This document shows positions 4,158-20,613 of a DNA stretch of 21,779 bases, one piece after another (the first letter of the stretch is position 1; each line of letters starts with the position of its first letter). A program made the position numbers and the translations under genes. The notes below the pieces were generated by a model, which saw only the letters and a list, made by a program, of their open reading frames with translations, made no database searches and was not told the DNA's origin. Origin of the DNA: a virus; IMG/VR virus record IMGVR_UViG_3300038306_000069, positions 1 through 21,779 of that record; one strand, written 5' to 3'.

Positions 4158-4158
4158 A

Positions 4159-4530
4159 TTAGAAAGTTATGTATACAGCACCTAACGAGTTAGTAGTTGC
4201 GCCTGATACTTTTAAGCGGAAGAATGGGGGCATTGCATTGCTTGTGATATGTCCTACTGTGTTAGCTTTAGAGTCTACCATGACTCCTTTTGAGGAGGGC
4301 ACTTCTGCGCTCAAGTGAGTTACCTCGCTAGTAGAACCGTCAGGATTGACGGAAGGTATACGCACTTCTAACGCAGCGTTAGAGAAGAAGAACACAGCTT
4401 TAGCGTCTATTGTGTCATACGTCTGTGTGGACTCGCCTACCTCAATGCCTGAAGGTATGCGCCAATACTCAGCTCTCTTACGGAGAACACCTTCGTGGTC
4501 TCTTTTCATTACTGTCTTTAGTAAAGTCAT
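4159..4530 (-). CDS. Small putative virion protein between capsid and tail A
   Basis: A 123-residue protein of unknown family. It has no membrane segment and no cysteine motif. Short hydrophobic stretches alternate with polar ones (KAVFFFSNAALEVRIPSV, PPFFRLKVSGATTNSLGAVY), suggesting a mainly beta fold. T7 has no gene between 10A/B and 11, so this is an addition. The position between major capsid and tail tubular A, in the same leftward operon and 1 nt before the tail gene, argues for a structural role such as head decoration or neck. That is inference from context only. No strong ribosome-binding site precedes the ATG. Confidence 0.6.
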   Translation of the reverse strand: MTLLKTVMKRDHEGVLRKRAEYWRIPSGIEVGESTQTYDTIDAKAVFFFSNAALEVRIPSVNPDGSTSEVTHLSAEVPSSKGVMVDSKANTVGHITSNAMPPFFRLKVSGATTNSLGAVYITF

Positions 4531-4548
4531 AGTTTAGTGTAGGAATGA

Positions 4549-4568
4549 GGGGCATCAAAAGATACCCC
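4549..4568 (-). other. Hairpin just downstream of the major capsid gene
   Basis: On the leftward strand GGGGTATC-TTTT-GATGCCCC forms an 8-bp stem with one G-T wobble and a 4-nt loop, in the 57-nt gap after the capsid stop. T7 places its Tphi terminator exactly after gene 10. Here no T-run follows the 3' arm, so it could be a partial terminator, an RNase processing site or an mRNA 3'-end stabiliser. The structure is seen; its role is unknown. Confidence 0.45.
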
Positions 4569-4587
4569 CCAAAAATAATAGCTAGTA

Positions 4588-5613
4588 TTAAGTAGCGTTT
4601 ACAAGTGAGTAAGCAGCTTCAGGACGGAGCATTCCGTGACCCATAGCATACTTAGCTACCATCAGCGTACCTTGTCTCTCGATTTGGTATTCAGCTTCCA
4701 TTGACAAGTCACGAAGCTTTACAGTTCCAACGGCTGACTTATGGAATATTACACCTTTAAGCTTTGCAGTTGCTGCATTAGTGGTGTAATCGTTGTTAGC
4801 ACCTGCATAGATTGTAGCTGCGCCGTCTGCTTGGTCCACAGTTGGTAAGTGAGCAGTCTTGTAGATTTCAAAACCTGCAATCATTGGAACCTTACCTGAA
4901 CCGAAGCCTGAGCCGCCGATGTCGGAGTTAGCAACAGTAGTAGTGATGTCAAATCCTACTGAACCATTACTGATTAGGTTGTAGTATAATGTAGGGTTCA
5001 TTACAATATAACGGTCTTCATCAGGGATACCTGCGATATCCATTTTTGAAGCCGCTTCGAACAGAGCTGAAACCAACGCTGCTGATGTAATAGCACTATC
5101 TGCTACACCTGTAGCGTGTGTGCCGATTTCAATAGTACCACCACCCGCAGCTTGCGGAGCAGTTTCTCCCGCTTGGGAAGCTTCTGCAATTACTGATAGT
5201 AGATGTTCGTCAGCGCGTTTAGATAGAGCATAGCCCATCTTGCGACTGTACTCTGAACGGTAATCATAGTGATTCTTAGCCTCATCTAAACTGTCAATAA
5301 AGGCAGTTGAGACAAGCAAATCATCAATGTGGATTAGACGCTCGTTGTGCTTAAAGTCTTCAAACTCGCCGCCCGCAGGGGTAGCCTCGATAAGAGAATT
5401 TCCAGGGGTGTGGTACTGCGCGTTAGTAGTACCGATGACGGGGAATTGTGCCGACTTACCTTGTGAGATAGTACGGACTGTGTGTAGAGGCATCATTATG
5501 TTCGATGTTTCGAACGCTGTAATGACTTCTCCTGAGAATTGCTTCAAGAATAGGGCGTTTGTATTCGTCCCATCTCCTGCTGCATCACCCAAGCGTGATA
5601 GTGGTAATGACAT
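4588..5613 (-). CDS. Major capsid protein (T7 gp10A-like, HK97 fold)
   Basis: Forms the icosahedral shell. At 341 residues it is close to T7 gp10A (345). Near the N-terminus ALFLKQFSGEVITAF and ISQGKSAQFPVIGT match the gp10A segments ALFLKVFGGEVLTAF and ISSGKSAQFPVLGR. NHYDYRSEYSRKMGYAL matches the gp10A stretch NHYDVRSEYTSQLGESL. The ATG is preceded at 6 nt by a clear AGGAG (5620-5624), the best ribosome site in this operon, as expected for the most abundant product. A 120-nt gap separates it from scaffold and a hairpin follows the stop. No slippage site for a gp10B-like extension was recognised. Confidence 0.96.
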   Translation of the reverse strand: MSLPLSRLGDAAGDGTNTNALFLKQFSGEVITAFETSNIMMPLHTVRTISQGKSAQFPVIGTTNAQYHTPGNSLIEATPAGGEFEDFKHNERLIHIDDLLVSTAFIDSLDEAKNHYDYRSEYSRKMGYALSKRADEHLLSVIAEASQAGETAPQAAGGGTIEIGTHATGVADSAITSAALVSALFEAASKMDIAGIPDEDRYIVMNPTLYYNLISNGSVGFDITTTVANSDIGGSGFGSGKVPMIAGFEIYKTAHLPTVDQADGAATIYAGANNDYTTNAATAKLKGVIFHKSAVGTVKLRDLSMEAEYQIERQGTLMVAKYAMGHGMLRPEAAYSLVNAT

Positions 5614-5733
5614 TTAAAACTCCTGTGGGTTATGTCGTTAAAAGAAAAATTAGTTAGAAATAGAACACTGCTTAGGTTGTAGAGTTATCCTTCGTAAAGG
5701 GCTAAACACTTACACTTAGTTCTGCAACATCAC
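5614..5733 (-). other. Capsid leader / scaffold-capsid intergenic gap
   Basis: A 120-nt untranslated gap immediately upstream of the capsid gene. It holds the AGGAG ribosome site and an AT-rich leader, plus a short CCTT-TACG-AAGG inverted repeat. T7 has its strong phi10 promoter in the equivalent place, so a phage-polymerase promoter is expected here. I could not recognise one, because the consensus for this polymerase is unknown and no 20-bp match to the other gaps stands out. Confidence 0.35.
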
Positions 5734-6477
5734 TTACATGATGTTTGAGTTTGCGAGCTTGCGTTTTACAGTCTCGCGGAATGCAGAGTCTTGAGCGTAC
5801 TTAGGATTAGCCATGTCTCTCTTCATTTCTGCTAGAGAGGAATAAGCTACGACTCCTGAGCCGCCTGTCTTACCCTGCATTAGGTTTGGTTGAGTGCCGT
5901 TCTCCATTTGGTGACGAGCTTGTAAGCCCTTTACCGCACTCATTGTTTGGTTCATATCTCCTGAATTAACAGCCGCATCGAACACGGCAACCTCTTCAGC
6001 GGAGAATGTTTCGGAAGCCCATTGAGTCATAGCTGTGTATTGCTCTTCGCCTCCGACTTGACTGAATACAGTCTGTGTGTGTTGGGTAATCATTGCCTGC
6101 TGCCCTGCAATGTAGTTATCCACCATGTCTTTAGATATACCCTTAGCTTCTAGACCTGCATAGTCTGATTCCTCTAGCTGACCATTCTCAGCAAAGCGGT
6201 CAGAGTAGAACTGCATATCATTATTACTAACGGTCCCCTCAATCGCGGGGGCTTCCTCTGTTGGAGTACCTAACTTGCCTTCTAGTTCCTTATAGGCTGC
6301 CGCCATCTCTTCAGGAGAATTGAACTTCTCAGGAAGGTAATCAGGACGGTCTGCCGCTGCTTCAGTCTCAGCCACTTCCGAAATAACTTCGGCAGCTTGA
6401 GCTTCGGCAGCTTGTTGTTCAGGACTTAAAGAGCCTGTTTCCTCGAAAGGAACTTCTACTGATTGAGTTTCACCCAT
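5734..6477 (-). CDS. Capsid assembly scaffolding protein (T7 gp9-like)
   Basis: Internal scaffold that directs procapsid assembly and is later lost. The chosen start gives 247 residues beginning MGETQSVEVPF. An earlier in-frame ATG at 6549 would add 24 basic, Asn-rich residues that are merely the out-of-frame tail of the portal gene, so it is rejected. The protein is acidic and Ala/Glu/Gln-rich with few aromatics. The motif YLPEKFNSPEEMAAAYKELE (about 47-66) is typical of podoviral scaffolds. The C-terminus is basic (NPKYAQDSAFRETVKRKLAN), as in scaffold regions that contact the coat. It starts 4 nt after the portal stop. Confidence 0.88.
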   Translation of the reverse strand: MGETQSVEVPFEETGSLSPEQQAAEAQAAEVISEVAETEAAADRPDYLPEKFNSPEEMAAAYKELEGKLGTPTEEAPAIEGTVSNNDMQFYSDRFAENGQLEESDYAGLEAKGISKDMVDNYIAGQQAMITQHTQTVFSQVGGEEQYTAMTQWASETFSAEEVAVFDAAVNSGDMNQTMSAVKGLQARHQMENGTQPNLMQGKTGGSGVVAYSSLAEMKRDMANPKYAQDSAFRETVKRKLANSNIM

Positions 6478-6481
6478 GTTT

Positions 6482-8038
6482 TTATTCGCCCTCTTGTGGA
6501 GGGGCTTGGTTTTGTTGTTGTTGGAGTTGCGCGGAGTCAGTAACTGCATCCATCGCTTTAGGACCTAACTGCTGCATCATTGCTTGCTGTTGGGCTTGTT
6601 GAGCTTCTTGTTGTAGCTCTTCCTGTGACTTGATTAAGCCTTTAGTATCAATGCCAAGTGCCGCCGCTCTGCGGTCTAGGTACTCTGACATATTAACGAA
6701 CTGCTGTACAGCTTCAGGTCCAAGTATCTGTCCGATGCCTGCAACGAAACTATCTAGTTTGTTCAAGTCATTGCCTCTTCCAAGAGCCTCAATGCCTGTA
6801 ACCACCATAGGCTTAACCATGTTCTTAGGCATCTTAGGTAGCCGCCCTGATGACTGCATACGTTGCATGACAATCTTCACTAGGGGAAGTTGGAACTCCT
6901 GAGATAGAACTGAATAGATACCACCAAGCTGACGCTCGATAGCTTGTGTTACTAGACGTACTTCCTCTGCGGTAACTCGTTCAGCTTTACGGATAGCTGC
7001 TTCAGTTAGCATGAAAGCATAATTCAATCGTTCTTGAATCTGATTGATAGTCTCAAAGGCTATGCGGAAGTCTGCGTGTTTCTGTGTCTGTAACACTGTA
7101 ACATCTGCTGCGCTTCCGTCAATGATAGCACCGTTAGCGGCTGTGGCTATCTTGGACTTTCGGGTAGTTCCGTTAGGAGCTACAAGGAACAGAAGCTTTG
7201 CCGCTGCTGCTGAACCTTCCACAATGGATTGAGTCAAGCCCTCAAGCGATTGTAAATCCCCTAGGTACTCTTCTACATATCCTCTACCGTAATCCTCACC
7301 ATCAATGCGATTAAGGCGCAGAGCCATGAATGGACTCTTATCCTTAGGGTAGGAACCTTCAGACCCCCCCAAACGGACACCACCAATCTCTTGATACACT
7401 TCGACATTTTCAGAATCAGTTGTAGTTATGGAGGTATATAGGCTGACGGTATCAACGTCTGAGGGCGTTTCTGAAGTTTGCGCTTCTTCAGGGACTTGTT
7501 CTTTAGCAATATCTTCTTTTATGACGATACGCTGAACATTCCCCATCGGGTCTCGTGTAATAACGAAACGGTCTAGGTGGAACACTCTCATGTGTCCTTC
7601 CTTCGGTACTTGTAGGAGTACATTACCTGAAACAATCAGATGCTTCAAGGCTTCAAACAACCCTACTCTGAAGTTATTACCTTCAATCTCTTTATGGATA
7701 TTACGTTCCATCTCAGAGAGTGCGGTAGAAACTTCAGTCTTTACCTCTTCAATGCCTTCCATCTCAGCCTTTGCCTTCTCATCTAACATTAGACGGAAGA
7801 AGGGAGCGTTAGGTGGCAACAAGCTCATCAGCAACGCAGAGCTGAGGTTATTAACACCTCGCGCACCAACGCTTTGATAAGGGGTCTTCAGTGATTCCGA
7901 AGATTTATCACCCGCCTCAGTTACAAGGGTAGGGATAGTTAGCTTCGATGCCTCACGCGCTCGGTCTAGGTATGGTGAACGGTTCCCCTGTTGCTTCTCA
8001 TACCAAGCCTCAGCGGTTACAATATCTACTTCAACCAT
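6482..8038 (-). CDS. Portal protein (T7 gp8-like head-tail connector)
   Basis: Dodecameric connector at one capsid vertex: the DNA channel and docking site for terminase and tail. At 518 residues it is close to T7 gp8 (536). Recognisable podoviral portal features include the N-terminal RSPYLDRAREASKLTIPTL, then LSSALLMSLLPPNAPFFRL, the GNVLLQ segment, and AFMLTEAAIRKAERVTAEEV, where TAEEV is the conserved portal helix motif. The C-terminal 50 residues are Gln-rich (EELQQEAQQAQQQAMMQQ). The ATG overlaps the stop of the preceding small gene (TAATG). Gene order portal, scaffold, capsid is as in T7. Confidence 0.95.
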   Translation of the reverse strand: MVEVDIVTAEAWYEKQQGNRSPYLDRAREASKLTIPTLVTEAGDKSSESLKTPYQSVGARGVNNLSSALLMSLLPPNAPFFRLMLDEKAKAEMEGIEEVKTEVSTALSEMERNIHKEIEGNNFRVGLFEALKHLIVSGNVLLQVPKEGHMRVFHLDRFVITRDPMGNVQRIVIKEDIAKEQVPEEAQTSETPSDVDTVSLYTSITTTDSENVEVYQEIGGVRLGGSEGSYPKDKSPFMALRLNRIDGEDYGRGYVEEYLGDLQSLEGLTQSIVEGSAAAAKLLFLVAPNGTTRKSKIATAANGAIIDGSAADVTVLQTQKHADFRIAFETINQIQERLNYAFMLTEAAIRKAERVTAEEVRLVTQAIERQLGGIYSVLSQEFQLPLVKIVMQRMQSSGRLPKMPKNMVKPMVVTGIEALGRGNDLNKLDSFVAGIGQILGPEAVQQFVNMSEYLDRRAAALGIDTKGLIKSQEELQQEAQQAQQQAMMQQLGPKAMDAVTDSAQLQQQQNQAPPQEGE

Positions 8039-8223
8039 TAACTCGGTATGTTAAGTCCTCTACGCGGAATGACTAAAGAGCCTTTACCACGTCGGCGTCT
8101 ACCGAACTGACCTGTACCTGCCGCTTCGGGATTCTCCACTCTTCGCGCTAATGGCTCAGGTGGCTTAGGAGCAGGAGGAGCCTCAGGAATCTCAGGCATC
8201 TTAGGGGCAGAACCCATGCACAT
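8038..8223 (-). CDS. Small proline-rich protein upstream of portal
   Basis: A 61-residue protein starting MCMGSAPKMPEIPEAPPAPK. It has a Pro-rich N-terminal half, a basic GQFGRRRRGKGSL patch and the end RRGLNIPS. Similar Met-Cys/Gly-Ser, Pro-rich, Arg-rich small proteins sit next to the portal gene in many T7-like phages and are thought to be minor virion or tail-assembly proteins in the position of T7 gp6.7-7.3. That assignment is inference. The start at 8223 is chosen over an upstream ATG at 8265 because it forms a TAATG overlap with the stop of the membrane microprotein gene and because the longer version overlaps that gene. Confidence 0.65.
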   Translation of the reverse strand: MCMGSAPKMPEIPEAPPAPKPPEPLARRVENPEAAGTGQFGRRRRGKGSLVIPRRGLNIPS

Positions 8224-8324
8224 TATAGTACAAACGTTCCTAGAAGAACGCCTAGAGTAAACCAAACAATACTAGCAGTGTGCTTAGTACCGAAATCTTT
8301 AAGGTAAGTTGAGAAAGCTGACAT
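8223..8324 (-). CDS. 33-residue single-pass membrane microprotein
   Basis: A tiny gene fitted exactly between its neighbours: its ATG is 1 nt after the stop at 8326 and its TAA overlaps the next ATG. The product has a polar N-terminus (MSAFSTYLKDFGTKHTA) followed by one hydrophobic segment (SIVWFTLGVLLGTFVL, about residues 18-33) running to the C-terminus. The seamless coupling is the main evidence that it is translated. It could be a tiny holin-like or membrane accessory peptide. No function can be assigned from sequence. Confidence 0.6.
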   Translation of the reverse strand: MSAFSTYLKDFGTKHTASIVWFTLGVLLGTFVL

Positions 8325-8325
8325 A

Positions 8326-8514
8326 TTATTTATCGAAGATAGTTTCATTCTGCATCTTATAGATTTCAAGAAATAAATCTACTACAGACTGACGCCCAAC
8401 ATTATACCATACTTCTCGGTCAGTATCGGATAAGTTAGGTAAATCCTTAGGTATTAGTTCTACAAGTGCCTTGACTTGTTCTTTGGTTATTATAGGAAAT
8501 GATTCTTTTAGCAT
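8326..8514 (-). CDS. Hypothetical 62-residue protein
   Basis: A small protein predicted to be helical, with no membrane segment and no recognised family. It holds TKEQVKALVELIPKDLPNLS followed by DREVWYNVGRQSVVDLFLEI. Its ATG overlaps the TGA of the metallophosphoesterase (ATGA), and its stop lies 1 nt before the membrane microprotein, so it is locked into the leftward operon. T7-like phages carry variable small genes in this position before the portal. Translation is likely; function is unknown. Confidence 0.65.
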   Translation of the reverse strand: MLKESFPIITKEQVKALVELIPKDLPNLSDTDREVWYNVGRQSVVDLFLEIYKMQNETIFDK

Positions 8515-9527
8515 CAGTTTAGTTTGAGTAGGTGTTCGGAGATAAGTCCTTTACGGTTGAAGAAGCACAATCGCTGTAGAGCTAGACCACCCTGCGCTAG
8601 TCTCTCACGAGCAAACTCGTTATCTGTCTCTGTGCTTCCGCTGAGAAAGAAGTAGGCGTCCTTGTTAAGCTCTCCTGATGCGTGGGTGTGGTAGTGTCCT
8701 ACGCTCAGAAACTTCCAATCCTCGATAAGTAGCTTCCACCCCATAGCTTTCTTGAAGATAGCTCCTACGTTGAAGGGTGTACCCCCTGAAATTTGGTCTC
8801 CATGTACACAGACGATGCCGTTACCCGCTACCTTCTGTTTGACGAACCAAGTCTCAGAGATGTCCCAATCCATATTCTTAACGCCTGCAACCTGACACAT
8901 AAGTTTGGCAGTATTGTAAGATACCAAATCCCAATTTGTCTTTCGGCTATGCCCTCCTCCCTTAAAGCCTGAACGACCGTGGTTTCCATGAACACACGCC
9001 ACTTTAATTTTAGGGACGAGAGGGGATAGTTTGGTGATGACATGAGTAATTAGCTGTGGTACGGTCTTGACCGCCTGTGTCCACAGGTCATCGTCAATCT
9101 CGAAGGGTTGCCCCGCGAAGATAGCCTCTCCTTCCACCATGTCACCCTGTAGGATGATATGTAGGACCTTAGGCTTCTCCTTACGGAGTAGGTCAGCCGC
9201 CTGATTGGTGAGCTGATGGACGCGGCGAGTCGCTATCTGTGAGTTGTAGGTCTCGGTTACTTTACCGACCTGCCAATCGGAAAGACACAGCCACGCCTCA
9301 GGCGTATTCTTAGAGCTTCTAGCTCGCTTTCCCTTCTTCTTTGGGGGAGCAGAGGAAGAAATCTTAACGCCCTTCAGAGCCTCCTCTACGGCTTCGTGTA
9401 TCAACGCCTCTGTAGCCTGCTGTTTGGATAACTTATTATATGCCTTACGGACTTCAGACTTGAGATGTTTCATCTCTACTCTCATGTCCTCAACATTCTT
9501 ATTAAATTCTTCGGGTGTAATTCCCAT
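8514..9527 (-). CDS. Calcineurin-like metallophosphoesterase with coiled-coil N-terminus
   Basis: A two-metal phosphoesterase-fold protein of 337 residues. Motifs in order: SDWQ (D84; the usual D-x-H has Gln at 86), GDMVEGE (G128 D129), GNHG (181-184), VHGD (H242) and GHYH (H278, H280). Residues 1-60 are charged and probably coiled coil, followed by a basic linker PPKKKGKRARSSK. Related proteins occur in marine podo- and myoviruses; their substrates are mostly untested (nucleic acid or cyclic-nucleotide phosphodiester are options). It is the first gene of the leftward operon. A TTGAGA-17-TATAAT promoter lies just upstream, but the ATG has no obvious Shine-Dalgarno sequence. Confidence 0.88.
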   Translation of the reverse strand: MGITPEEFNKNVEDMRVEMKHLKSEVRKAYNKLSKQQATEALIHEAVEEALKGVKISSSAPPKKKGKRARSSKNTPEAWLCLSDWQVGKVTETYNSQIATRRVHQLTNQAADLLRKEKPKVLHIILQGDMVEGEAIFAGQPFEIDDDLWTQAVKTVPQLITHVITKLSPLVPKIKVACVHGNHGRSGFKGGGHSRKTNWDLVSYNTAKLMCQVAGVKNMDWDISETWFVKQKVAGNGIVCVHGDQISGGTPFNVGAIFKKAMGWKLLIEDWKFLSVGHYHTHASGELNKDAYFFLSGSTETDNEFARERLAQGGLALQRLCFFNRKGLISEHLLKLN

Positions 9528-9546
9528 AGATATTGTTCTTGGTTTA

Positions 9547-9555
9547 TGTTATACT
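9547..9555 (+). promoter_or_regulatory. Extended -10 element for the terminase genes
   Basis: TG-T-TATACT matches an extended -10 (TGnTATAAT). No good -35 is present at 16-18 bp. Transcription would start near 9562 and give a leader of about 20 nt before terS. Moderate to low confidence. Confidence 0.35.
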
Positions 9556-9583
9556 ACGGGGGCGTAGCATTCGCATTATAACA
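9547..9583. repeat. Nested palindrome in the divergent promoter gap
   Basis: The gap between the leftward phosphoesterase and the rightward terminase holds two nested inverted repeats. The outer arms are TGTTATA (9547-9553) and TATAACA (9577-9583). The inner arms CTACG (9554-9558) and CGTAG (9563-9567) flank GGGG. The outer arms coincide with -10 elements on opposite strands, so a bound factor or a cruciform could set the balance between structural and terminase transcription. The symmetry is seen; the control role is inference. Confidence 0.6.
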
Positions 9584-9603
9584 ATGAGTAACGACAATCT
9601 CAA
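9575..9603 (-). promoter_or_regulatory. Sigma70-type promoter for the leftward structural operon
   Basis: On the leftward strand TTGAGA (9603-9598), 17 bp, then TATAAT (9580-9575) preceded by TG-T, so it is both -35/-10 and extended -10. The -35 lies inside the first codons of terS. It would start RNA near 9568 and drive the phosphoesterase-portal-capsid-tail operon with host RNA polymerase, unlike T7, where the late genes use the phage polymerase. Confidence 0.6.
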
Positions 9604-9802
9604 GTCCCTTCTTTCAAAACTTCACGAAGACGTAGCTAAAGAACTCTTAGAGCGCATCGCCACAGGCGAAGCCTCTACGGGAGACATCTCTGCGGCTATC
9701 AAGTTTCTGAAAGACAACGACGTGACTGTAGTAGTGGAAGAGAGTAAGCCTGTGATGAATTTAGTCAAGGCTCTCCCATTCACAGAAGCTAAAGAAGCGT
9801 AA
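9584..9802 (+). CDS. terS: Terminase small subunit (T7 gp18-like)
   Basis: A DNA-packaging accessory subunit that recognises concatemer DNA and works with the large subunit. It is 72 residues from the chosen ATG: MSNDNLKSLLSKLHEDVAKE, then LLERIATGEASTGDISAAIK and FLKDNDV. The HxxVAKxLLERI...GEAS..DISAAIKFLKDN pattern is typical of gp18-like small terminases of podoviruses, which are short and helical (T7 gp18 is 89 residues). An upstream ATG at 9533 would add 17 residues lying over the promoter palindrome, so 9584 is preferred. Its TAA overlaps the ATG of the large subunit (TAATG), which is the strongest support. Confidence 0.82.
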   Translation: MSNDNLKSLLSKLHEDVAKELLERIATGEASTGDISAAIKFLKDNDVTVVVEESKPVMNLVKALPFTEAKEA

Positions 9803-11466
9803 TGGAAATCCCTAACGAGCTGAAAGACTTTAGGAATTTTGTCTATTTAGCGTGGGACCATCTAGGTCTGCCTGAGCCTACCCCTGTACAGTACGATATA
9901 GCACAGTATCTACAGGATGGTCCACGGCGGCAGATTATTCTCGCGTACCGTGGTGTAGGTAAGTCATACCTCACGTCTGCCTACGTCTGTTGGCGGCTCC
10001 TCTTAGACCCATCCCTGAACATCCTTGTGGTGTCAGCATCTAAGAACCGTTCAGATGACTTCTCTACCTTCACACAGAGACTCATCAACGAGATGCCTAT
10101 ACTTGAGCATCTAAAGGCTAGACCTGAGCAACGTGACTCCAAGATAGCCTTCGATGTAGGACCTGCACCTGCTGCACACGCCCCATCTGTCAAGGCTGTC
10201 GGTATAACGGGACAATTAACAGGTTCTCGTGCCGACCTGATTGTGGCAGACGATGTGGAGTCCCTAAATAATTCAGAAACACAGGGTATGCGGGATAAGC
10301 TAGGTAACCTAGTGAAGGAGTTTGACTCCATTCTCAAGCCTGAGGGACAGATAAGGTATCTAGGAACTTACCAAACAGAGATGTCTCTGTACAAAGTCTT
10401 ACCTGATAGAGGTTATACCCCCCGTGTATGGACAGGAAGATACCCAAAGATGGATAAAGTAGCAGCATACGGTTCTTACTTGGCTCCTTATATCCTCGAT
10501 AAGATTACAGATGACCCGTCACTCGAAGGTACACCTGTAGACCCTAAGCGTTTCGATGAGGATGACCTTGTGGAACGTGAGCTATCCTATGGTCGTTCAG
10601 GCTTTGCATTGCAATTCATGCTTGACCCTAGCTTGTCGGATGCTGATAGGTATCCACTCAAGCTCAAAGACTTCATTGTGATGGACATAGACCGTGAGGT
10701 AGCACCTGAGCGTGTCATCCACTCCAATAGTCCTGAGAAGGTATTGAAGAACCTCACCTCTGTAGGATTTAGTGGTGATTACTTCCATATGCCTCTAGCT
10801 GTAGACGGTGAGTTCATACCCTACCGTGGTACGGTGATGACCATTGACCCATCAGGGCGTGGTAGTGACGAGACAGGTTACTGCATCATGTCGATGCTCA
10901 ACGGTTTCTTATATGTCCATGAATGCTCAGGGGTAGCAGGTGGATACTCGACAGAAACCCTGACTGCTCTAGCAGAACTAGCTAAGAAGTATAAGGTCAA
11001 AGAGATACAGGTGGAATCTAACTTCGGTGATGGTATGTTCAATGAACTACTCACGCCATACCTCAAGAAGATATACCCTGTCACCCTCTCTGAGGTAAGA
11101 CACTCGACTCAGAAGGAACGTCGTATCATTGAGACCCTAGAGCCGCTACTGAATCAACATAGAATCATTATATCTCCTGAGGTCATAGAGAACGACTATA
11201 GCTCTACTAGCCACCTGCCTCCTGAGAAGGCTCCTCAGTATAGACTCTTCCATCAACTCACTAGAATCACCACAGCTAGAGGAGCATTAGCTCACGATGA
11301 CAGGCTAGAGGTGATGGCTATGGCAGCTCACTATTGGGTCGAAGCTGTAGGACAAGACGTAGACGAGATGATGCAAGAAGACAAGGCTGAAAGACTAAAT
11401 AAGGAACTAGAAAGCTTTATGGCGAATGCTATCGGATATACTAAAGACAATACCTCTTGGTTGTAG
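9802..11466 (+). CDS. terL: Terminase large subunit (T7 gp19-like)
   Basis: ATP-driven packaging motor plus headful/terminal-repeat nuclease, docking on the portal. It is 554 residues against 586 in T7. Walker A is AYRGVGKS (48-55) and Walker B is LIVADDVE (146-153), with D150/D151 likely Mg and catalytic carboxylates. The RNase H-like nuclease domain begins with MTIDPSGRGSDETGY (D349), then QVESNFGDGMF, and the late acidic motif AHDDRLEV (D499/D500). The gene is coupled to terS. It is followed by a terminator and the repeat-rich region, the same relation T7 gene 19 has to its right end. Strand is opposite to the structural genes, unlike T7. Confidence 0.97.
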   Translation: MEIPNELKDFRNFVYLAWDHLGLPEPTPVQYDIAQYLQDGPRRQIILAYRGVGKSYLTSAYVCWRLLLDPSLNILVVSASKNRSDDFSTFTQRLINEMPILEHLKARPEQRDSKIAFDVGPAPAAHAPSVKAVGITGQLTGSRADLIVADDVESLNNSETQGMRDKLGNLVKEFDSILKPEGQIRYLGTYQTEMSLYKVLPDRGYTPRVWTGRYPKMDKVAAYGSYLAPYILDKITDDPSLEGTPVDPKRFDEDDLVERELSYGRSGFALQFMLDPSLSDADRYPLKLKDFIVMDIDREVAPERVIHSNSPEKVLKNLTSVGFSGDYFHMPLAVDGEFIPYRGTVMTIDPSGRGSDETGYCIMSMLNGFLYVHECSGVAGGYSTETLTALAELAKKYKVKEIQVESNFGDGMFNELLTPYLKKIYPVTLSEVRHSTQKERRIIETLEPLLNQHRIIISPEVIENDYSSTSHLPPEKAPQYRLFHQLTRITTARGALAHDDRLEVMAMAAHYWVEAVGQDVDEMMQEDKAERLNKELESFMANAIGYTKDNTSWL

Positions 11467-11899
11467 AAAAATATTTATACCCTTACCCCTAGAGAAAGAC
11501 AAATCTCTGTGGTACGCTAGACCATATGCGCGGTAGACAGATACCTCTAAGTATACTAGAGAGTAACTACCACCCCTTAGTTCCCCTTTTAGGGGAGGAA
11601 AGGAGATAAGTAGTAGGTACTCTAGAGAACCTAAGAGTAATCCTTCCCTCTACCCTACTCTCCATCATGGGATTATGAGGAAGTATATTGGGTCTAATAG
11701 TCCCTCCATGAGCTGAGCGTTATGCTCGCTCCCTGCAATACTCCACGGGGAAATACCTTGGGAGGTAGGTTCCCACAGGGTTTTGTTTTGTTTACCTAGG
11801 GTATGGAGGGTCCATAAAAATTACAGAAAAATACGAGCGGGTATATATATGACCCCGCCTCGCAGAGTTCCCCCATAGCCCCCCTGCTCTCATGGGCTA
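11467..11899. other. Noncoding region after terminase, part 1 (terminator and hairpins)
   Basis: No convincing gene. It contains an intrinsic terminator (11756-11793), a CCCCT-TTT-AGGGG hairpin (11583-11595), a GC-rich arm pair around an AT tract near 11837-11858, and the 7-bp hairpin ATAGCCC/GGGCTAT (11875-11900) that abuts the first 14-bp repeat. By T7 analogy the right genome end and packaging signals should lie in or just beyond this stretch. No cut position can be read from the sequence alone. Confidence 0.5.
11756..11793 (+). terminator. Intrinsic terminator after terL
   Basis: CCTTGGGA (11756-11763) pairs with TCCCA-C-AGG (11771-11779, one bulged C) around a 7-nt loop, followed by GTTTTGTTTTGTTT. 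A stem plus T-rich tail is the classic form and would end rightward terminase transcripts before the genome-end region. Confidence 0.7.
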
Positions 11900-12349
11900 T
11901 TTGCAACATCCTATCGGCACTCCTTTGCAACATCCTAGCTTTGCAATATCCTAACGAGCCTGCGGTCTTTGCAACATCCTAGCGAGCCTGCGAGGCTATA
12001 AAATCCCTTTATTATCCTTGACTTATACCGACGCATCGCTAGGGGCTTCCTAGACCTACCCTCGCCCTGCTGTACGCCTGCTGTATCGCCTGTCTTTGCA
12101 ACATACTATAGAGCCGTCGTAAGTCGTTACAGGCACTAGACTTACGCACGCATCGACGGAGAATAGCCTGCGGTGTCCTGTGCTGTCCGTAGCACCCCTA
12201 CCCGATTAACTACCCTCTTGACATATCGAACGGCTATGTATGCCCTGTTTATGAGCGAGCGTAAGTCCTGCTCTCATAACGACTTATGACCGTTAGGTTC
12301 TGAGGGCTGTTTGATTTGCAATATTCTATCCCTGATTTGCAATATCCTA
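11900..12349 (+). repeat. Iterated 14-bp repeat TTTGCAAYATYCTA, seven copies
   Basis: Copies start at 11900, 11924, 11940, 11968, 12095 (A for C at position 11), 12315 and 12336, all on the + strand. The third and fourth extend to 28-bp units sharing CGAGCCTGCG. The last two form a 21-bp tandem (TGATTTGCAATATYCTATCCC, one difference). Iterated short motifs beside the terminus recall the SRL/SRR repeats flanking the T7 terminal repeat, and also resemble iterons. A packaging, end-processing or initiation role is inference. Confidence 0.8.
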
Positions 12350-12393
12350 TCCCAAATACAGCCGTCCTAAGTCGTTACAGGCACTAGACTTAC
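12113..12393 (+). repeat. Repeated dyad CGTAAGTC-N13-GACTTAYG and 33-bp direct repeat
   Basis: Three dyads share the same arms and the same 13-nt spacer. The sites are 12118-12146 (8-bp arms), 12260-12288 (CGTAAGTC/GACTTATG, different spacer sequence) and 12368-12392 (6-bp arms). Sites 1 and 3 belong to a 33-bp direct repeat (12113-12145 and 12361-12393, one difference) that includes the spacer. The middle site overlaps a second inverted repeat, TTATGAG (12249-12255)/CTCATAA (12273-12279). Conserved spacing with a changed spacer sequence points to a protein-binding dyad or a hairpin of fixed loop size. Confidence 0.75.
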
Positions 12394-12480
12394 AGCGTCC
12401 ACGCACAGCCATTTTAAGCACCCTCTCATCGTCTTTACGGGTAACCCTATTGACTACCCACATTAAGGACGAACGCAGAT

Positions 12481-12541
12481 TCAGTCATAACCCCTTGTAA
12501 ACAAAGGACTTAGGGGCGTCAGTCGTAACCCCTTTGTTTAC
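12481..12541. repeat. Direct and inverted repeat pair
   Basis: GTAAACAAAGG (12497-12507) and CCTTTGTTTAC (12531-12541) are perfect 11-bp inverted arms 23 nt apart. TCAGTCRTAACCCCTT occurs at 12481-12496 and again at 12519-12534, so direct and inverted symmetry interlock. TTTGTTTACCTA also recurs at 11787-11798. Function unknown; possibly an end-processing or binding site. Confidence 0.65.
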
Positions 12542-12751
12542 CTATACTTAGGTGCGCTGTTGTACTCGATTGTATGCGAGATAGGCTATGCGTTTATAGT
12601 GCGCTAATTCTAGCTATTTGGAATTATAATGCCCTATTTAAAATACCTTGATTTTAGGGGTTGTTGCCTTGACACGCCGTGCTATTCTTGGGGCATGAGG
12701 AAGGGACAGCCCACCCCCATAGCTCTTTAATACTCCTGCCTTACTTGTCGA

Positions 12752-12767
12752 TGTTCCACGTGAAACA
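12752..12767. promoter_or_regulatory. parS: Perfect parS site (ParB-binding consensus)
   Basis: TGTTCCACGTGAAACA is a near-perfect palindrome and matches the bacterial chromosomal parS consensus (TGTTNCACGTGAAACA) at every position. A chance 16-bp match in a 22-kb window is very unlikely. It lies in noncoding DNA about 80 bp upstream of the first strong early promoter. No ParA or ParB gene is visible in the window, so any binding would be by host ParB or by a phage protein encoded elsewhere. Match seen; function inferred. Confidence 0.85.
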
Positions 12768-12844
12768 ATTAGACGGTCAATTTCCTAGTCATGCGCCTAC
12801 CCGTGCCCCTGACAAATGAGACCCTAAGTTTCAATAATAAAACC

Positions 12845-12873
12845 TTGACAGGTAAGCACGGCAGAAGTAGATT
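12845..12873 (+). promoter_or_regulatory. Sigma70-type early promoter
   Basis: TTGACA (12845-12850), 17 bp, TAGATT (12868-12873). Predicted RNA start near 12880, with no start codon and good ribosome site until 13386, so it produces a leader or noncoding RNA of about 450-500 nt before the first early gene. Confidence 0.65.
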
Positions 12874-12879
12874 AGAGGA

Positions 12880-13345
12880 ATAAGAGGCAACAAGTAACCC
12901 ACCACACACAATCGGGTGAGCCTCACAATCAGAAGGTCATTAACAATTAGGAAGAAACGAGACGCTAGGAATAAGTGAAACTAAGCTGTAACCAAGCACC
13001 CATAAAGTAAAGACGGAAATGTGATTGCCGACCCTGTACTAGAACAGGACGCTAAAGGGGTAGAAGGGATAAGGAACAACATCATGGTAAACCAAGCAGA
13101 CCCCAAAAGGTTAGGGTAGAGGGAAGCGATAACGCTAGAACCCTTAGGACTGATTAAGTTCTAGTACAGAGATTCGGTCTATGCCGTGTACCATAAAGCT
13201 AACCGCTAAGAACGGACGCCCTCGACAAGCGTTGATTCTAGCGGGATATCAAATTGTGATAAATAGAAACAATCAAGGGGTGGTGTAGTAGGGTCTAAAG
13301 ACCAAACACCGCCCCTATTGTCGCATGGAAGATAGGTAACCATGC
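12880..13345 (+). ncRNA. Putative large structured RNA or 5' leader
   Basis: About 470 nt with no usable ORF lie between a consensus promoter and the first early gene. Many complementary arms are present. TGTACTAGAAC (13035-13045) pairs with GTTCTAGTACA (13158-13168), 11 bp, closing a 134-nt domain that contains AGGGT/ACCCT and AGCG-ATAA-CGCT. CCGCTA(A)GAA (13203-13212) pairs with TTCTAGCGG (13236-13244) over an inner ACGC/GCGT. AGGGGTGGTGT (13276-13286) pairs with ACACCGCCCCT (13306-13316, one wobble) over GGTC-TAAA-GACC. GCATGG/CCATGC (13323-13345) follows. The 13035 arm can instead form a local CCTGT/ACAGG hairpin. Unpaired parts are purine-rich (GAAA, GGAA, GTAA). The pairings are seen; RNA class and function are unknown. 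Confidence 0.6.
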
Positions 13346-13385
13346 CCGATGACGGATAACCTAAAAAACAATGTACGGAGGACAC

Positions 13386-13562
13386 ATGAATAACATTAAC
13401 TTAATCGCCTCGATATTCGAGGGTAGCACCTGCGCAGACTTCTCGGAAGTAGTGCTAAGCGACCCAAGACTGAAGGCGTTTTTCCTAGACAACATAGGAA
13501 GGGACGCGGTGCTAGTCGCTGAAGAATTAGAGGTACTAGCTGAAGATTTGGGGGTACTGTAA
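13386..13562 (+). CDS. Early acidic protein, paralogue 1
   Basis: A 58-residue acidic protein (MNNINLIASIFEGSTCADF, then SEVVLSDPRLKAFFLDNIGR). The ATG at 13386 is chosen because GGAGG sits 4 nt before it; an in-frame ATG at 13371 would start inside that ribosome site. It is the first gene after the structured leader. It shares a pattern with the next gene: NLI, (A/S)xEV, L(K/V)AF(F/L)xDI, then an acidic helix xDLxxL. Very early acidic proteins in T7-like phages include the DNA mimic Ocr, but there is no sequence evidence for that role here. Stop and next ATG overlap (TAATG). Confidence 0.65.
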   Translation: MNNINLIASIFEGSTCADFSEVVLSDPRLKAFFLDNIGRDAVLVAEELEVLAEDLGVL

Positions 13563-13774
13563 TGGCAACTATAAACTACACTTCTGCCCTATTAAAGCTA
13601 ACTAATTTAATAGAGGAACTAACACCCTTTGACGCACAAGAGGTAATAATTTACATAAAGGGCGAGGGATTATTGGTCGCATTTTTAGAGGACATCGACG
13701 CGCAAACGCCGATAGAGTCAATAGATGCAGATTTGCAAATGGTCTTACAGGACTTTACAGAGGGGGGCGAGTAA
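13562..13774 (+). CDS. Early acidic protein, paralogue 2
   Basis: A 70-residue acidic protein with only two lysines and no arginine. Segment TNLIEELTPFDAQEVIIYIK followed by GEGLLVAFLEDIDAQ parallels the preceding gene, suggesting an old tandem duplication. The coding end ACAGAGGGGGGCGAGTAA runs into an 11-A tract (13773-13783) just before the next promoter cassette; no T-rich terminator is seen. Translationally coupled to its neighbour. Function unknown; host-takeover or anti-defence roles are only suggested by early position and charge. Confidence 0.65.
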   Translation: MATINYTSALLKLTNLIEELTPFDAQEVIIYIKGEGLLVAFLEDIDAQTPIESIDADLQMVLQDFTEGGE

Positions 13775-13796
13775 AAAAAAAAACAAGATAAAAGTC

Positions 13797-13831
13797 TTGA
13801 CAACTAAAGGGGGCTAGGTTATTCTTAGCCC
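13797..13831 (+). promoter_or_regulatory. Early promoter cassette 1 with dyad over -10
   Basis: TTGACA (13797-13802), 17 bp, TATTCT (13820-13825). GGGCTA (13811-13816) and TAGCCC (13826-13831) form an inverted repeat that brackets the -10. The flanks AAGATAAAAGTC upstream and CTCACACTT downstream recur in cassette 2 near 14754-14808. The dyad may be an operator; this is inference. Confidence 0.75.
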
Positions 13832-13865
13832 TCACACTTAACAATAATAATGTACGGAGGTACAC

Positions 13866-14144
13866 ATGAAACTAGCAGAGAAACTAAAGGTAAGCAATAT
13901 GTACAGCAGAGGCGGTAACAAAGTTGCAAATCAATTCATAATCACGACGGCAACATCGGAGATTTTCCAAAGCTACAACACCGTCATAGCTATTAAGCAC
14001 AACGACGGACGAGTAGAACTAGACAACGCATGGGAGTACAGCGTAACAACGGCACGATACCGCAATATGTTTCTAGGTGAAAGCACCAAAGAGACTAGAG
14101 CGTTTGTCAAGGACGGTGCGTACACCGTAGGAGATTTGAACTAA
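13866..14144 (+). CDS. Conserved phage hypothetical protein (DUF8033-like)
   Basis: A 92-residue protein. The pattern GGNKVANQFIITTATSEIFQ, SYNTVIAIKHNDGRVELDNA, WEYSVTTARYRNMFLGES and the final AYTVGDLN is one I recognise from many unrelated phages as a small protein of unknown function; the DUF8033 label is from memory and uncertain. It is the first gene of promoter cassette 1, with a strong GGAGG and a leader (ATGTACGGAGG-ACACATGAA type) nearly identical to that of the first early gene. It is coupled to the next gene by TAATG. Confidence 0.75.
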   Translation: MKLAEKLKVSNMYSRGGNKVANQFIITTATSEIFQSYNTVIAIKHNDGRVELDNAWEYSVTTARYRNMFLGESTKETRAFVKDGAYTVGDLN

Positions 14145-14338
14145 TGAATGAAAATCTTAATAATGAGTGCGAGCAATGTAGCGACCACGGCTATTTAATT
14201 AGTAACGCGGAAGCGGGGCACAATGAGGTGCAATTCTGCCAAGAATGTAACCAATTAAGCAACGATGTGGAAGCGATTGGCAAAGCGTTAGCAGATGTCA
14301 TTCTCTTTTTGGCGATTAAAGAGGAGGGGGTAGTGTAA
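14144..14338 (+). CDS. Small zinc-knuckle-like protein 1
   Basis: A 64-residue acidic protein with two CxxC pairs: CEQC (residues 9-12) and, 20 residues on, CQEC. This is a spacing typical of a zinc ribbon. Segment CEQCSDHGYLISNAEAG parallels CDVCETDGYLMNINTEG in the next gene. A second ATG at 14148 is possible, but the TAATG overlap favours 14144. Function unknown; small zinc ribbons in early phage regions often bind host proteins or nucleic acid. Confidence 0.6.
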   Translation: MNENLNNECEQCSDHGYLISNAEAGHNEVQFCQECNQLSNDVEAIGKALADVILFLAIKEEGVV

Positions 14339-14541
14339 TGGATATTACTAACGCTATTCTTTACTCATCAGATTGTTGTTGGTCAGAGCCATATATAATT
14401 AGGTGTAATATGTGCGAAAAACTATTCGACGATGAGACTCATCTAGCGTCGCTAGAGGACGAGGGGGGGCTGTTTAACGGCTGTGATGTTTGCGAGACAG
14501 ACGGTTACTTAATGAACATCAATACAGAGGGGGCATTATAA
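14338..14541 (+). CDS. Small zinc-knuckle-like protein 2
   Basis: A 67-residue protein with CNMC (about 23-26) and CDVC (about 49-52), a likely zinc-binding four-cysteine set, plus a DCCW near the start. It shares the CxxCxxxGYL motif with the preceding protein, suggesting exchange or duplication of a zinc module. A GAGGGGG ribosome site precedes the ATG. The end TEGAL-stop lies in a 19-bp repeat (14524-14542) that also provides the next ribosome site and ATG. Confidence 0.6.
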   Translation: MDITNAILYSSDCCWSEPYIIRCNMCEKLFDDETHLASLEDEGGLFNGCDVCETDGYLMNINTEGAL

Positions 14542-14739
14542 TGCACCATACAGACCGCAAATTGTCGGTGCATAAAAACCTCGACAAGAGAATAGCAGAA
14601 GCACAAGGATACATTAACCGTATATATGAAGCCGACCATACAGCATCGGTGAAGTGTGTACAGATGATGAAGGCTAACGCAGTACTTCAAGCGTTAGTCG
14701 CACTCCGCGATGAGTCTCAAACAGAGGGGGCATTATAAT
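14524..14739 (+). repeat. 19-bp direct repeat at two gene ends
   Basis: ACAGAGGGGGCATTATAAT occurs at 14524-14542 and 14721-14739. In the first copy it encodes TEGAL-stop and supplies the ribosome site and ATG of the next gene; in the second the ATG context is lost. It looks like the scar of gene insertion or deletion. Confidence 0.75.
14541..14738 (+). CDS. Hypothetical early protein ending in TEGAL
   Basis: A 65-residue basic, helical protein (MHHTDRKLSVHKNLDKRIAE, then AQGYINRIYEADHTASVKCV). The start at 14541 forms a TAATG with the upstream stop and has GAGGGGG 7 nt upstream; an out-of-register ATG at 14490 inside the previous gene is rejected. Its last codons repeat the 19-bp sequence that ends the previous gene, but here the ATG after the stop is ATT, so no cistron follows. 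Unknown function. Confidence 0.6.
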   Translation: MHHTDRKLSVHKNLDKRIAEAQGYINRIYEADHTASVKCVQMMKANAVLQALVALRDESQTEGAL

Positions 14740-14766
14740 TCACATAAAACTTTCAAGATAAATGTC

Positions 14767-14803
14767 TTGACAAACAACGAGGGCTAGGCTAAGCTTAGCT
14801 CTC
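14767..14803 (+). promoter_or_regulatory. Early promoter cassette 2
   Basis: TTGACA (14767-14772), 17 bp, TAAGCT (14790-14795), in a near-copy of cassette 1 (shared GTCTTGACAA, GGGCTAGG, CTTAGC, CTCACACTT). The dyad GGGCTA/TAGCTC is kept with one wobble. It drives the 270-residue gene, whose AAGGAGAT ribosome site lies before 14858. Confidence 0.75.
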
Positions 14804-14857
14804 ACACTTTAAGGGGAGAAATAAACTTCCCTAACTCTAACATAAGGAGATAAACAA

Positions 14858-15670
14858 ATGACACAATCAGAAACAATCAGGGTAGAAGCGATAGCTACTG
14901 CCATTCACGATACGCTAGTAATAGACGGTTGGACTACACCCAACGACGATGAACGCGATACCGACGGCAACCATCGGTACTACCGAGTTTTCTCAAAGGA
15001 AGGGTATGCTGACATAACTCAAAGCTACTGCGTCGCTGACCCCGAAGCTTGGCGAAGCTATGTAACTTCCCTTACACTAGAGTGTGACGGTAAACTCATA
15101 CGATGCACAGACTATGCAACACCGAAGAAGCTACGAGCTTTCTTGGTTAGAGCAGACAAGCTACAAGACATAGCGAAGGCGAAGGCTGAACGCGATGATG
15201 CGAAGAAAGCCAAAGCAAAGAAGGAGTCGGACTACATAGCTGAGTATGTTAAGCAGAATTGCGCCTTTACTTGGGAGGAATTCTTCGAGGAAGGCGAAAG
15301 ATATAAAGGTCTTCGTGAATCAATGGTGGCTGAAGTCGAAAGACAGAACGAAACTCAAGGGTTCATAGGTTCTTTTAAGCAAGTAGTAGAAGTTAAGATA
15401 CCCTACGACGTAGCTAATTACGAAACTAGCTATGAGTACCTAGAGGAAAGACTTGCTAAAGACTTTAAGATTAAAATTGTAAGTGCTGATTGTTTAGTTG
15501 AAGAAGTCGAGCGATTCCAAGAGACTCTTGCAGGTGTGATGTTAATCTTCACAGGCGCAGAAGGGATAGCCTTACGAGATGCCTTCAGGTCGGCACATAT
15601 AATGGCGATAGCTATCAACGAAGCTGAGAGCGAAGGGCGTAAAGCCTACAAAGCATTGGAGGTGGAGTAA
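14858..15670 (+). CDS. Hypothetical early protein, 270 residues
   Basis: The largest unassigned early protein. Residues 1-95 look like a compact alpha/beta domain (SETIRVEAIATAIHDTLVID; YYRVFSKEGYADITQSYCVA). Residues about 100-125 are a charged Ala/Lys helix (DIAKAKAERDDAKKAKAKKE), probably coiled coil. A C-terminal acidic region contains CAFTWEEFFEEGERYKG and LEERLAKDFKIKIVSADCLV. No catalytic motif or membrane segment is recognised. A strong ribosome site and a dedicated promoter suggest substantial expression. The TAA overlaps the next ATG. Function unknown. Confidence 0.75.
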   Translation: MTQSETIRVEAIATAIHDTLVIDGWTTPNDDERDTDGNHRYYRVFSKEGYADITQSYCVADPEAWRSYVTSLTLECDGKLIRCTDYATPKKLRAFLVRADKLQDIAKAKAERDDAKKAKAKKESDYIAEYVKQNCAFTWEEFFEEGERYKGLRESMVAEVERQNETQGFIGSFKQVVEVKIPYDVANYETSYEYLEERLAKDFKIKIVSADCLVEEVERFQETLAGVMLIFTGAEGIALRDAFRSAHIMAIAINEAESEGRKAYKALEVE

Positions 15671-15918
15671 TGGCACGAACCATAGGAACAATGTATCACT
15701 TAGAAGTCTATGACTACGACGATGCAAAGGACGGCGTGACTACTTGGAAGCCACTTTCTAGTGGTGAGTCAGAGACACAGATACTAGCAGACCTTATTGA
15801 GTTGCTGAACTCAGAGGAACTAAACGTAAGTAACTCTTACCTCAGAGTGGTAGAGATTACGACCACTAAGTATTCACAATACTCAGAGGTGGTGATAGGT
15901 AAGGGAGGTATTAACTAA
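15670..15918 (+). CDS. Hypothetical early protein, 82 residues
   Basis: A small protein with likely alternating strands (TMYHLEVYDYDDAKDGVTTW; SYLRVVEITTTKYSQYSEVV) and one helix (ILADLIELLNSEEL). No family recognised. Coupled by TAATG to the 270-residue gene and followed within 10 nt by a strong hairpin, so it is probably the last gene of cassette 2. Confidence 0.65.
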   Translation: MARTIGTMYHLEVYDYDDAKDGVTTWKPLSSGESETQILADLIELLNSEELNVSNSYLRVVEITTTKYSQYSEVVIGKGGIN

Positions 15919-15926
15919 AGAGAACC

Positions 15927-15953
15927 GAAGGGTAGGTCTTTCACTTACCCTTC
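15927..15953 (+). other. 11-bp hairpin closing the cassette-2 operon
   Basis: GAAGGGTAGGT-CTTTC-ACTTACCCTTC: 11 bp with one G-U wobble and a 5-nt loop. No T-run follows, so RNase III-type processing (as between T7 early genes) or 3'-end protection is more likely than intrinsic termination. The next 100 nt contain no gene. Confidence 0.55.
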
Positions 15954-16053
15954 AACCTTCCCCTCTTGGGAACTAGCCACCACGAACCCCATCGTAAAGA
16001 TGCCTTGAAGATAATCAAGAACTATTTAGTAATTCTTTTTATGTCTTTTCTTC

Positions 16054-16081
16054 TTGACAAAGCCTAAGGACTTGTTAAGAT
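16054..16081 (+). promoter_or_regulatory. Early promoter 3
   Basis: TTGACA (16054-16059), 16 bp, TAAGAT (16076-16081). It lacks the dyad of cassettes 1 and 2. A GAGAG-GTGACA-CTCTC hairpin lies in the leader. It drives the long operon that ends in RNA polymerase. Confidence 0.7.
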
Positions 16082-16146
16082 ACTACAAACAAACCACGAG
16101 AGGTGACACTCTCTTACTCTAACCGTCATCAAGACAGGAGATTAAA

Positions 16147-16371
16147 ATGTCAAACCTAGAAACAAAACAAAAGGTTCATAGCGAACTATCATCATGGGAA
16201 GTTGAGTGTATCAGAGATACAGCTTTCCGCTCACCCACCATCATACTAGATATATCCGTAGATGACCAAAGCCTTGAGCAAATGGTTGAGGAGTACGAGA
16301 CAGCTCGGTATGCCCTACAAGAATGCGCTGAAGAAATCGCAGAGTATTGCAACATCACGGAGTACAAGTAA
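16147..16371 (+). CDS. Hypothetical early protein, 74 residues
   Basis: An acidic protein with the core LSSWEVECIRDTAFRSPTII followed by a long acidic helix (SLEQMVEEYETARYALQECA). Three cysteines do not form a clear metal motif. The ribosome site GGAGAT precedes the ATG by 6 nt, and the gene is first behind promoter 3. Its TAA overlaps the ATG of a 27-residue ORF. Unknown function. Confidence 0.65.
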   Translation: MSNLETKQKVHSELSSWEVECIRDTAFRSPTIILDISVDDQSLEQMVEEYETARYALQECAEEIAEYCNITEYK

Positions 16372-16454
16372 TGAGTTACGCCGAACTAGAGAAGGCTCTT
16401 AAAGAAGCGTTAGATAAGCTAATCGCAGAAGATGAAGCGAAGGAGGGTAAGTAA
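16371..16454 (+). CDS. 27-residue helical microprotein
   Basis: MSYAELEKALKEALDKLIAE then DEAKEGK. It is a complete micro-gene with TAATG junctions at both ends; its own 3' end supplies the GGAGG of the next gene. The peptide is a charged amphipathic helix. It could be a functional peptide or a coupling leader that mainly delivers ribosomes to the next start. Confidence 0.5.
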   Translation: MSYAELEKALKEALDKLIAEDEAKEGK

Positions 16455-17024: not shown

Positions 17025-17026
17025 AA

Positions 17027-20588: not shown

Positions 20589-20613
20589 AAACAGGCAGGA
20601 AAATAATAGTAAC

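Follow-up and report, generated by a model that had tools for sequence, protein, structure and literature searches.

The window, a single viral contig of 21,779 bases taken at its full length, is organised as two gene arms that point away from each other. The minus-strand arm, left of 9527, carries a phosphoesterase gene, small ORFs and the portal, scaffold, capsid and tail genes. The plus-strand arm, right of 9584, carries terS and terL, a non-coding stretch and small early genes, and continues with a MarR-like regulator, a T7-type RNA polymerase, an SSB and a RusA-like resolvase. The gap between the phosphoesterase gene and terS is 56 bp.

1–8514, minus strand: remaining leftward arm in the window, small ORFs and tail genes included (PHROG matches, ORFs)
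4588–5613, minus strand: capsid (PHROG match)
5734–6549, minus strand: scaffold (PHROG match)
6482–8038, minus strand: portal (PHROG match)
8514–9527, minus strand: calcineurin-like phosphoesterase/exonuclease, first gene of the leftward arm (PHROG 284, E 1.2e-50; Pfam Metallophos, 23.2 bits, cut-off 21.5)
9584–9802, plus strand: terS, terminase small subunit (PHROG 891, E 4.5e-15; Pfam DNA_Packaging_2, E 1.7e-15)
9802–11466, plus strand: terL, terminase large subunit (PHROG 38, E 2.6e-115)
18219–20588, plus strand: T7-type single-subunit phage RNA polymerase (PHROG 414, E 2.2e-194; Pfam RNA_pol, E 9.8e-77)

The hallmark of the Autographiviridae, a single-subunit RNA polymerase together with T7-type head and terminase genes, is present in the window. 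The one-direction gene order of that family is not, the structural arm being inverted in the window and in the relatives G001, G010 and G012. The nearest named phages by TerL are Roseobacter phages, at 58–59% identity at best, and no named phage reached 60% for TerL, the RNA polymerase or the portal. Close named relatives were found neither by megablast of positions 5000–21779 against phages nor by a phosphoesterase search of genome_contigs. In G001, the longest relative (39 kb), the contig ends overlap, which suggests a complete circular assembly. Its plus arm extends from terS to about 21.3 kb and its minus arm from the phosphoesterase gene round to about 21.6 kb, so that the 56-bp gap is the only point at which the two arms diverge; some small, mechanically called ORFs in the early region depart from this pattern.

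About 1.9 kb between terL and the early genes of the window (11467–13370) show no convincing genes; the stretch contains TTTGCAACATCCTA in repeated copies together with related units, and by synteny the genome ends may sit here. Directly after terL (about 11510–11545), GGTACGCTAGACCATATGCGCGGT is nearly unchanged in G001, G010 and G003 and was not seen in G002. The capsid-gene leader (5614–5733, minus strand) contains a stretch, AAGTGTTTAGCCCTTTACGAAGGATAACTC..., that is strongly conserved in the seven sequences compared, including the sister clade described below; an Rfam search of the window, this stretch included, gave no match up to E 1. After the capsid gene (4531–4587, minus strand), a GC-rich inverted repeat, GGGGGGTATC-TTTT-GATGCCCC, is a possible terminator.

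Promoter motifs and geometry

A sigma70-type extended −10, a TGN-TATAAT-like element, is found on both strands of the junction.

9547–9555, plus strand: rightward extended −10, TGTTATACT (TATACT 9550–9555), candidate element for terS-terL; TGN and hexamer in all 10 distinct junctions
9554–9567: nested palindrome, CTACG (9554–9558), GGGG (9559–9562), CGTAG (9563–9567)
9562, plus strand: predicted rightward +1, the seventh base after the −10; hairpin starting exactly here in 5 of 5 sequence types
9568, minus strand: predicted leftward +1; hairpin at this offset in 4 of 5 types, one base further in 5 of 5
9575–9583, minus strand: leftward extended −10, TGTTATAAT (TATAAT 9580–9575), by motif and weight-matrix score
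9598–9603, minus strand: leftward −35, TTGAGA, within terS codons, with a 17-bp spacer to the −10

All the motifs of the original prediction, namely TGTTATACT, TGTTATAAT, TTGAGA at 17 bp and CTACG-GGGG-CGTAG, were recovered. By itself the pattern TGNTATAMT is unremarkable in the window (3 found against 1.81 expected, with 27 of 100 shuffles reaching 3). Two of the three copies face each other 19 bp apart, and a hand estimate with 11 allowed spacings puts such facing pairs at about 4e-4 per window by chance. The leftward promoter matches 11 of 12 consensus bases in addition to the TG and is the best of 18 sigma70 matches between 5 and 15 kb, a number in itself not remarkable against the 13.7 expected by chance.

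When sigma70 sites were ranked with a weight matrix, the leftward site took rank 1 among 1040 sites of the window, rank 1 among 1984 in G001 and rank 2 among 2223 in G010. The corresponding ranks of the rightward site were 7, 12 and 24. At the junction of G002, out of 2735 sites, the rightward promoter ranked 4 (from the copy at 35078, the other copy being too near the contig end) and the leftward promoter 8 and 9 (two copies). The window scores are 16.4 leftward versus 12.0 rightward, and the rightward −35 (TAGATA) is poor. The likeness of the leftward promoter to a host sigma70 promoter, claimed earlier, is supported by its top rank in the window, where it looks like a strong one.

Transcription starts were placed throughout at the seventh base after the −10, a standard distance that PMC12825309 also gives. 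The two −10 boxes of the window stand 19 bp apart with the predicted starts, 9562 (plus) and 9568 (minus), between them, and the predicted transcripts overlap by 7 nt. Each promoter has the −10 of its partner downstream of its own start, which makes the pair face-to-face. The earlier description as a divergent promoter holds in that an opposite sigma70-type pair separates the structural and terminase arms, but only the genes diverge. The outer inverted repeat follows from the opposite orientation of the two −10 boxes.

Conservation among relatives

A search of viral_contigs with the phosphoesterase yielded 22 loci: 14 contigs with the same junction, one (L094) cut before the junction, and seven that make up a sister clade. 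The 14 contigs and the window represent 10 distinct junctions of five sequence types:

Type A: window, L083, L082/L084
Type B: L086/L087, L088
Type C: L085/L103
Type D: L090/L091/L093
Type E: L089, L092, L102

This sample is biased by database content and shared ancestry, and counts over types are not independent. Rightward TGN-TATACT (TATGAT in type D) was present in all 10 distinct junctions. The leftward hexamer (TATAAT, TATACT or TACAAT) was likewise found in 10 of 10, its TG in types A and E only, and the leftward −35 reads TTGATA in type B at the same 17-bp spacing and is not recognisable in C, D and E. Across the distinct junctions the −10 boxes are 18–20 bp and the predicted starts 5–7 bp apart. 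Upstream of terS, TGNTANNNT occurs in 6/6 distinct divergent junctions versus 0/52 distinct regions of related phages, in which terS mostly lies directly behind another gene; both sets were drawn from the TerL search, omitting loci that had no terS match or were too near a contig end.

Further phosphoesterase scans returned only contigs already in the set, and among the loci listed by a portal search every contig in which terS was found belonged to one of the two clades already. When viral_contigs was searched with a degenerate DNA form of the junction, 24 stretches matched; those outside the family look unrelated and were dropped.

Predicted 5′-terminal hairpins

Folding of the first bases of the predicted transcripts gave a helix from base 1 for all 10 rightward ends and for 9 of the 10 leftward ones, so that hairpins sit at the very first nucleotides of starts that are themselves predicted.

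9553–9568, minus strand: predicted 5′ hairpin of the leftward mRNA, GCTACG-CCCC-CGTAGT, holding the nested palindrome 9554–9567 (folding)
9562–9574, plus strand: predicted 5′ hairpin of the rightward mRNA, GCG-TAGCATT-CGC (folding; 3 bp, weak alone)

The rightward helices are GCG..CGC in type A, GTGT..GCAC in B, GCAC..GTGC in C, GTGC..GCAC in D and GCGC..GTGC in E. The leftward helices are GCTACG..CGTAGT in A, ACTACA..TGTAGT in B, GATGC..GCATC in D and, with one bulge, ATACGC..GCaGTAT in E. Type C folded no leftward 5′ hairpin and was kept in all counts. Position 2 of the rightward helix shows compensatory changes (C-G in A, C and E; T-A in B and D), and position 3 is G-C, A-T or G-U across types. 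The middle segment (about 9562–9568) would be paired with the segment to its left in the leftward RNA and with the one to its right in the rightward RNA; the counts for the two hairpins, which share it, are not independent.

As background, 94 of 1464 other −10-like sites in six contigs have such a hairpin at +1 (a helix of at least 3 pairs at an energy of −3.1 or lower, the 1464 still including the junctions), as do 5.5% of random positions. When the start was slid from −6 to +9 in one representative of each of the five types, the rightward hairpin was found in 5/5 types only at offset 0, in at most 3/5 elsewhere and in 1/5 at −1 and +1. The leftward hairpin was found in 4/5 types at 0 and 5/5 at +1, and in 4–5 of 5 from 0 to +2. 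With the same representatives, spacer shuffles in which both hairpins were as good made up 0.03% in A, 0.02% in B, 0 of 20000 in D and 0.01% in E; type C, with no leftward hairpin, gives no meaningful joint figure. In the window, the leftward hairpin has a z-score of −3.33 (2 of 200 shuffles as good). The rightward hairpin, at z = +0.39 and with 6% of spacer shuffles as good, is not significant in this single sequence, and the argument therefore rests on comparison of five types that are not independent.

That hairpins begin exactly at the predicted starts supports these starts without RNA data, and the starts singled out, 9562 and 9568, are those of the original prediction. The motifs, their geometry and conservation and the hairpin positions relative to the −10 boxes are direct observations on the DNA. 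A Shine-Dalgarno sequence is missing before terS and the phosphoesterase gene, which is not special here (13 of 27 listed starts are without one).

The sister clade (L095–L101) has an extra ORF of 94–95 residues upstream of terS and keeps face-to-face −10-like boxes with predicted starts 14–15 bp apart. Its rightward box, TGGTATCAT, falls inside the extra ORF and is possibly kept for coding reasons. The leftward box is TATACT, with TGN in 3/7, and lies 5–6 bases before the ATG of the extra ORF, suggesting that the message would be leaderless. A hairpin at either predicted start was found in 0/7 contigs, so the hairpins are a feature of the clade of the window and not of the face-to-face arrangement.

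Search for phage promoters

Promoter families were sought as 23-base repeats with at most 5 mismatches on the sense strands. The scan recovered the T7 promoters (up to 16 partners), those of LUZ100 (6) and a four-site family in CRP-227. In G001, G010, G002 and the window it gave no family of more than three dispersed sites, in a design that could miss one or two, or degenerate, phage promoters. Its largest clusters in these sequences consist of repeats local to the non-coding region, of early sigma70 promoters and of a small number of three-site clusters; in G001 the latter include +154/+10767/−2102, which is mostly coding. G002 (L109) has an intergenic palindromic motif, CACCTGATGAGGTG / CCACCTGATGAGGTG, at 3827, 5544 and 15353, with two exact copies of CCACCTGATGAGGTG and one with three mismatches, and CACCTGATGAGGTG may be a promoter or a terminator of that phage. 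At the mismatches tried, CACCTGATGAGGTG was absent from the junction, the window, G001 and G003. The phage RNA polymerase diverges down to 49% identity across types that keep both −10 boxes, which makes the host polymerase the more likely reader of the junction.

Discussion

The promoter pair at this junction is stronger than the original prediction held, but its geometry and the meaning of its palindrome are different. We think it fairly probable that two face-to-face host-type promoters, mutually exclusive, lie here and that each mRNA opens with a 5′ hairpin that is likely protective. At the divergence point of the two gene arms, a rightward sigma70 extended −10 promoter would drive terS-terL and a leftward one the phosphoesterase gene and the structural operon. 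RNA polymerase has a footprint of about −40 to +20. The footprints of the two promoters would overlap, making simultaneous occupancy impossible, and with the predicted starts between the −10 boxes the polymerases should exclude each other: a polymerase on one promoter would cover the start of the other, and firing would be limited to one direction at any moment. A short hairpin would start at the first base of either message, the two hairpins sharing the middle segment, and they would most likely shield the 5′ ends against loss of pyrophosphate and against decay of the RNase E type. Transcription itself, host-polymerase use, mutual exclusion and mRNA protection are what we infer from the comparisons above.

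It had been proposed that a repressor bound to the palindrome could switch both directions at once. The comparison does not support this, since the outer arms fail to co-vary and the inner sequence changes by type. More generally, an operator through which a phage repressor, either the MarR-like protein or TerS, closes down the two arms together is unlikely to be what the palindromes represent. The segments S1, S2 and S3 do form successive inverted half-sites in DNA as well, and the site changes roughly as TerS diverges (58–98% identity), as a co-evolving site might. A MarR-like gene at 17685–18038 also precedes the RNA polymerase gene, and MarR-type control near the polymerase has been proposed for related temperate T7-like phages (PMC10134795). 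The regulatory nature of this protein, named earlier as the candidate repressor, is indicated by PHROG 9665 ('transcriptional regulator', 5.5e-11), while its Pfam match as MarR is weak (17.3 bits, cut-off 27). However, agreement of the outer arms at the N of TGN is confined to type A, the type of the window, and both arms differ between types A and B even though the MarR-like proteins of G001 (A) and G010 (B) are each 96% identical to that of the window. The inner palindrome varies in sequence among types, with pairing kept in A, B and D, bulged in E and nearly lost in C; changed sequence with kept pairing is expected of a 5′ RNA hairpin on the leftward message rather than of a fixed operator. 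Nor does an operator need hairpins that start exactly at both predicted +1 positions. The G-U pairs, in the rightward helix of B and E and at the foot of the leftward helix of A, pair in RNA and not in duplex DNA, although one inner pair of type D would be a G-U pair on the opposite strand alone.

The possibility that only the leftward promoter is real, and that the leftward −10 and the translation signals of terS give rise to the rightward −10 and hairpin incidentally, seems to us distinctly unlikely. The leftward site is indeed far stronger in matrix score, the rightward −35 is poor and the rightward hairpin is weak in the window. Yet of the two elements it is the rightward one, TGN-TATACT/TATGAT, that is better conserved, with its TG in 10/10, and terS lacks a co-directional upstream gene to be read from.

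Late genes of T7-like phages are usually read by the phage enzyme, the rightward TATACTACGGGGG superficially resembles a T7-type start and CRP-227 has a phage promoter before its structural module (repeat at 17873), but we regard it as very unlikely that the T7-type polymerase of the phage itself initiates at the junction, whether leftward, rightward or both ways: the conserved part is TGN-TATACT with variable downstream bases next to a polymerase diverging as noted, a repeat scan able to miss one or two, or degenerate, promoters gave no family of more than three dispersed sites, and neither the junction nor the window holds the one three-site motif of G002 that is clearly intergenic. It is plausible, with indirect support from the repeat scan, that the capsid genes do not depend solely on the phage polymerase.

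Bidirectional sigma70 promoters have been described in E. coli and Salmonella by Warman, Grainger and colleagues (PMC12825309, PMC10268837). They resemble the arrangement predicted here in that sigma70 starts on opposite strands are separated by no more than a few tens of bp and that the two polymerases exclude each other sterically. There, one pseudo-symmetric −10 is shared, with starts on either side or within it, most often 18 bp apart, whereas here two separate −10 boxes face each other 18–20 bp apart and no −10 is shared. For the E. coli promoters, competition at opposed starts and its effect on output are established (PMC12825309).

The T7 gene 10 (phi10) capsid transcript also opens with a hairpin-forming sequence, GGGAGACC...GGTTTCCC, but it is read by T7 polymerase, and in the T7 record all genes run in one direction. 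That record annotates an E. coli promoter (E[6]) at 36836, just after gene 18/terS. Emory, Bouvet and Belasco reportedly described mRNA stabilisation by 5′-terminal stem-loops in 1992. According to a review (PMC3997798), such stem-loops stabilise mRNA and a 5′ hairpin impedes RppH. In common with these mRNAs, the hairpins predicted here begin at or very near the first base; what sets them apart is their prediction for both transcripts of a single junction, and the middle segment that the two share.

The temperate T7-like phages LUZ100 and CRP-227 have homologues of terL, portal and RNA polymerase, with a MarR-like regulator upstream of the polymerase. They differ, as does T7, in having structural and terminase genes on the same strand, and both have recognisable dispersed phage promoters; late genes of LUZ100 are read by its own polymerase (PMC10134795). 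Each component of the junction is known, and the combination appears new; a search of the open-access literature found no description of such a junction.

T7-like phages are the textbook case of late genes dependent on the phage's own polymerase. One may speculate, as a possibility that we hold only tentatively, that the host polymerase has taken over the late genes in a T7-like clade whose structural module is inverted, that an exclusive promoter pair within 56 bp balances capsid against terminase, and that the middle segment serves both 5′-protective hairpins. If so, the phage polymerase would have few or no late promoters, and a host promoter pair able to fire in only a single direction at any moment would offer a compact natural means of fixing the ratio of one operon to the other. 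The reading makes a sharp prediction, namely a 5′ end on each strand, the two lying six bases from one another and each being the first base of a hairpin. The comparison also illustrates how hairpins at predicted starts can back those starts from comparative data.

Other promoter-like sites of the window were recorded. At 16055–16081, a TTGACA/TGTTAAGAT site precedes the ORF at 16147 and has counterparts in G001, G010 and G002. The idea of a Xer/dif-like site, judged by visual inspection alone, was discarded. The early sigma70 promoters at 13797–13838 and 14767–14806 have an inverted repeat whose arms enclose the −10 (GGGCTA...TAGCCC in one case, nearly the same in the other), and similar repeats occur in G001 at about 8872, 9147 and 9965; these are possible sites of the MarR-like regulator.
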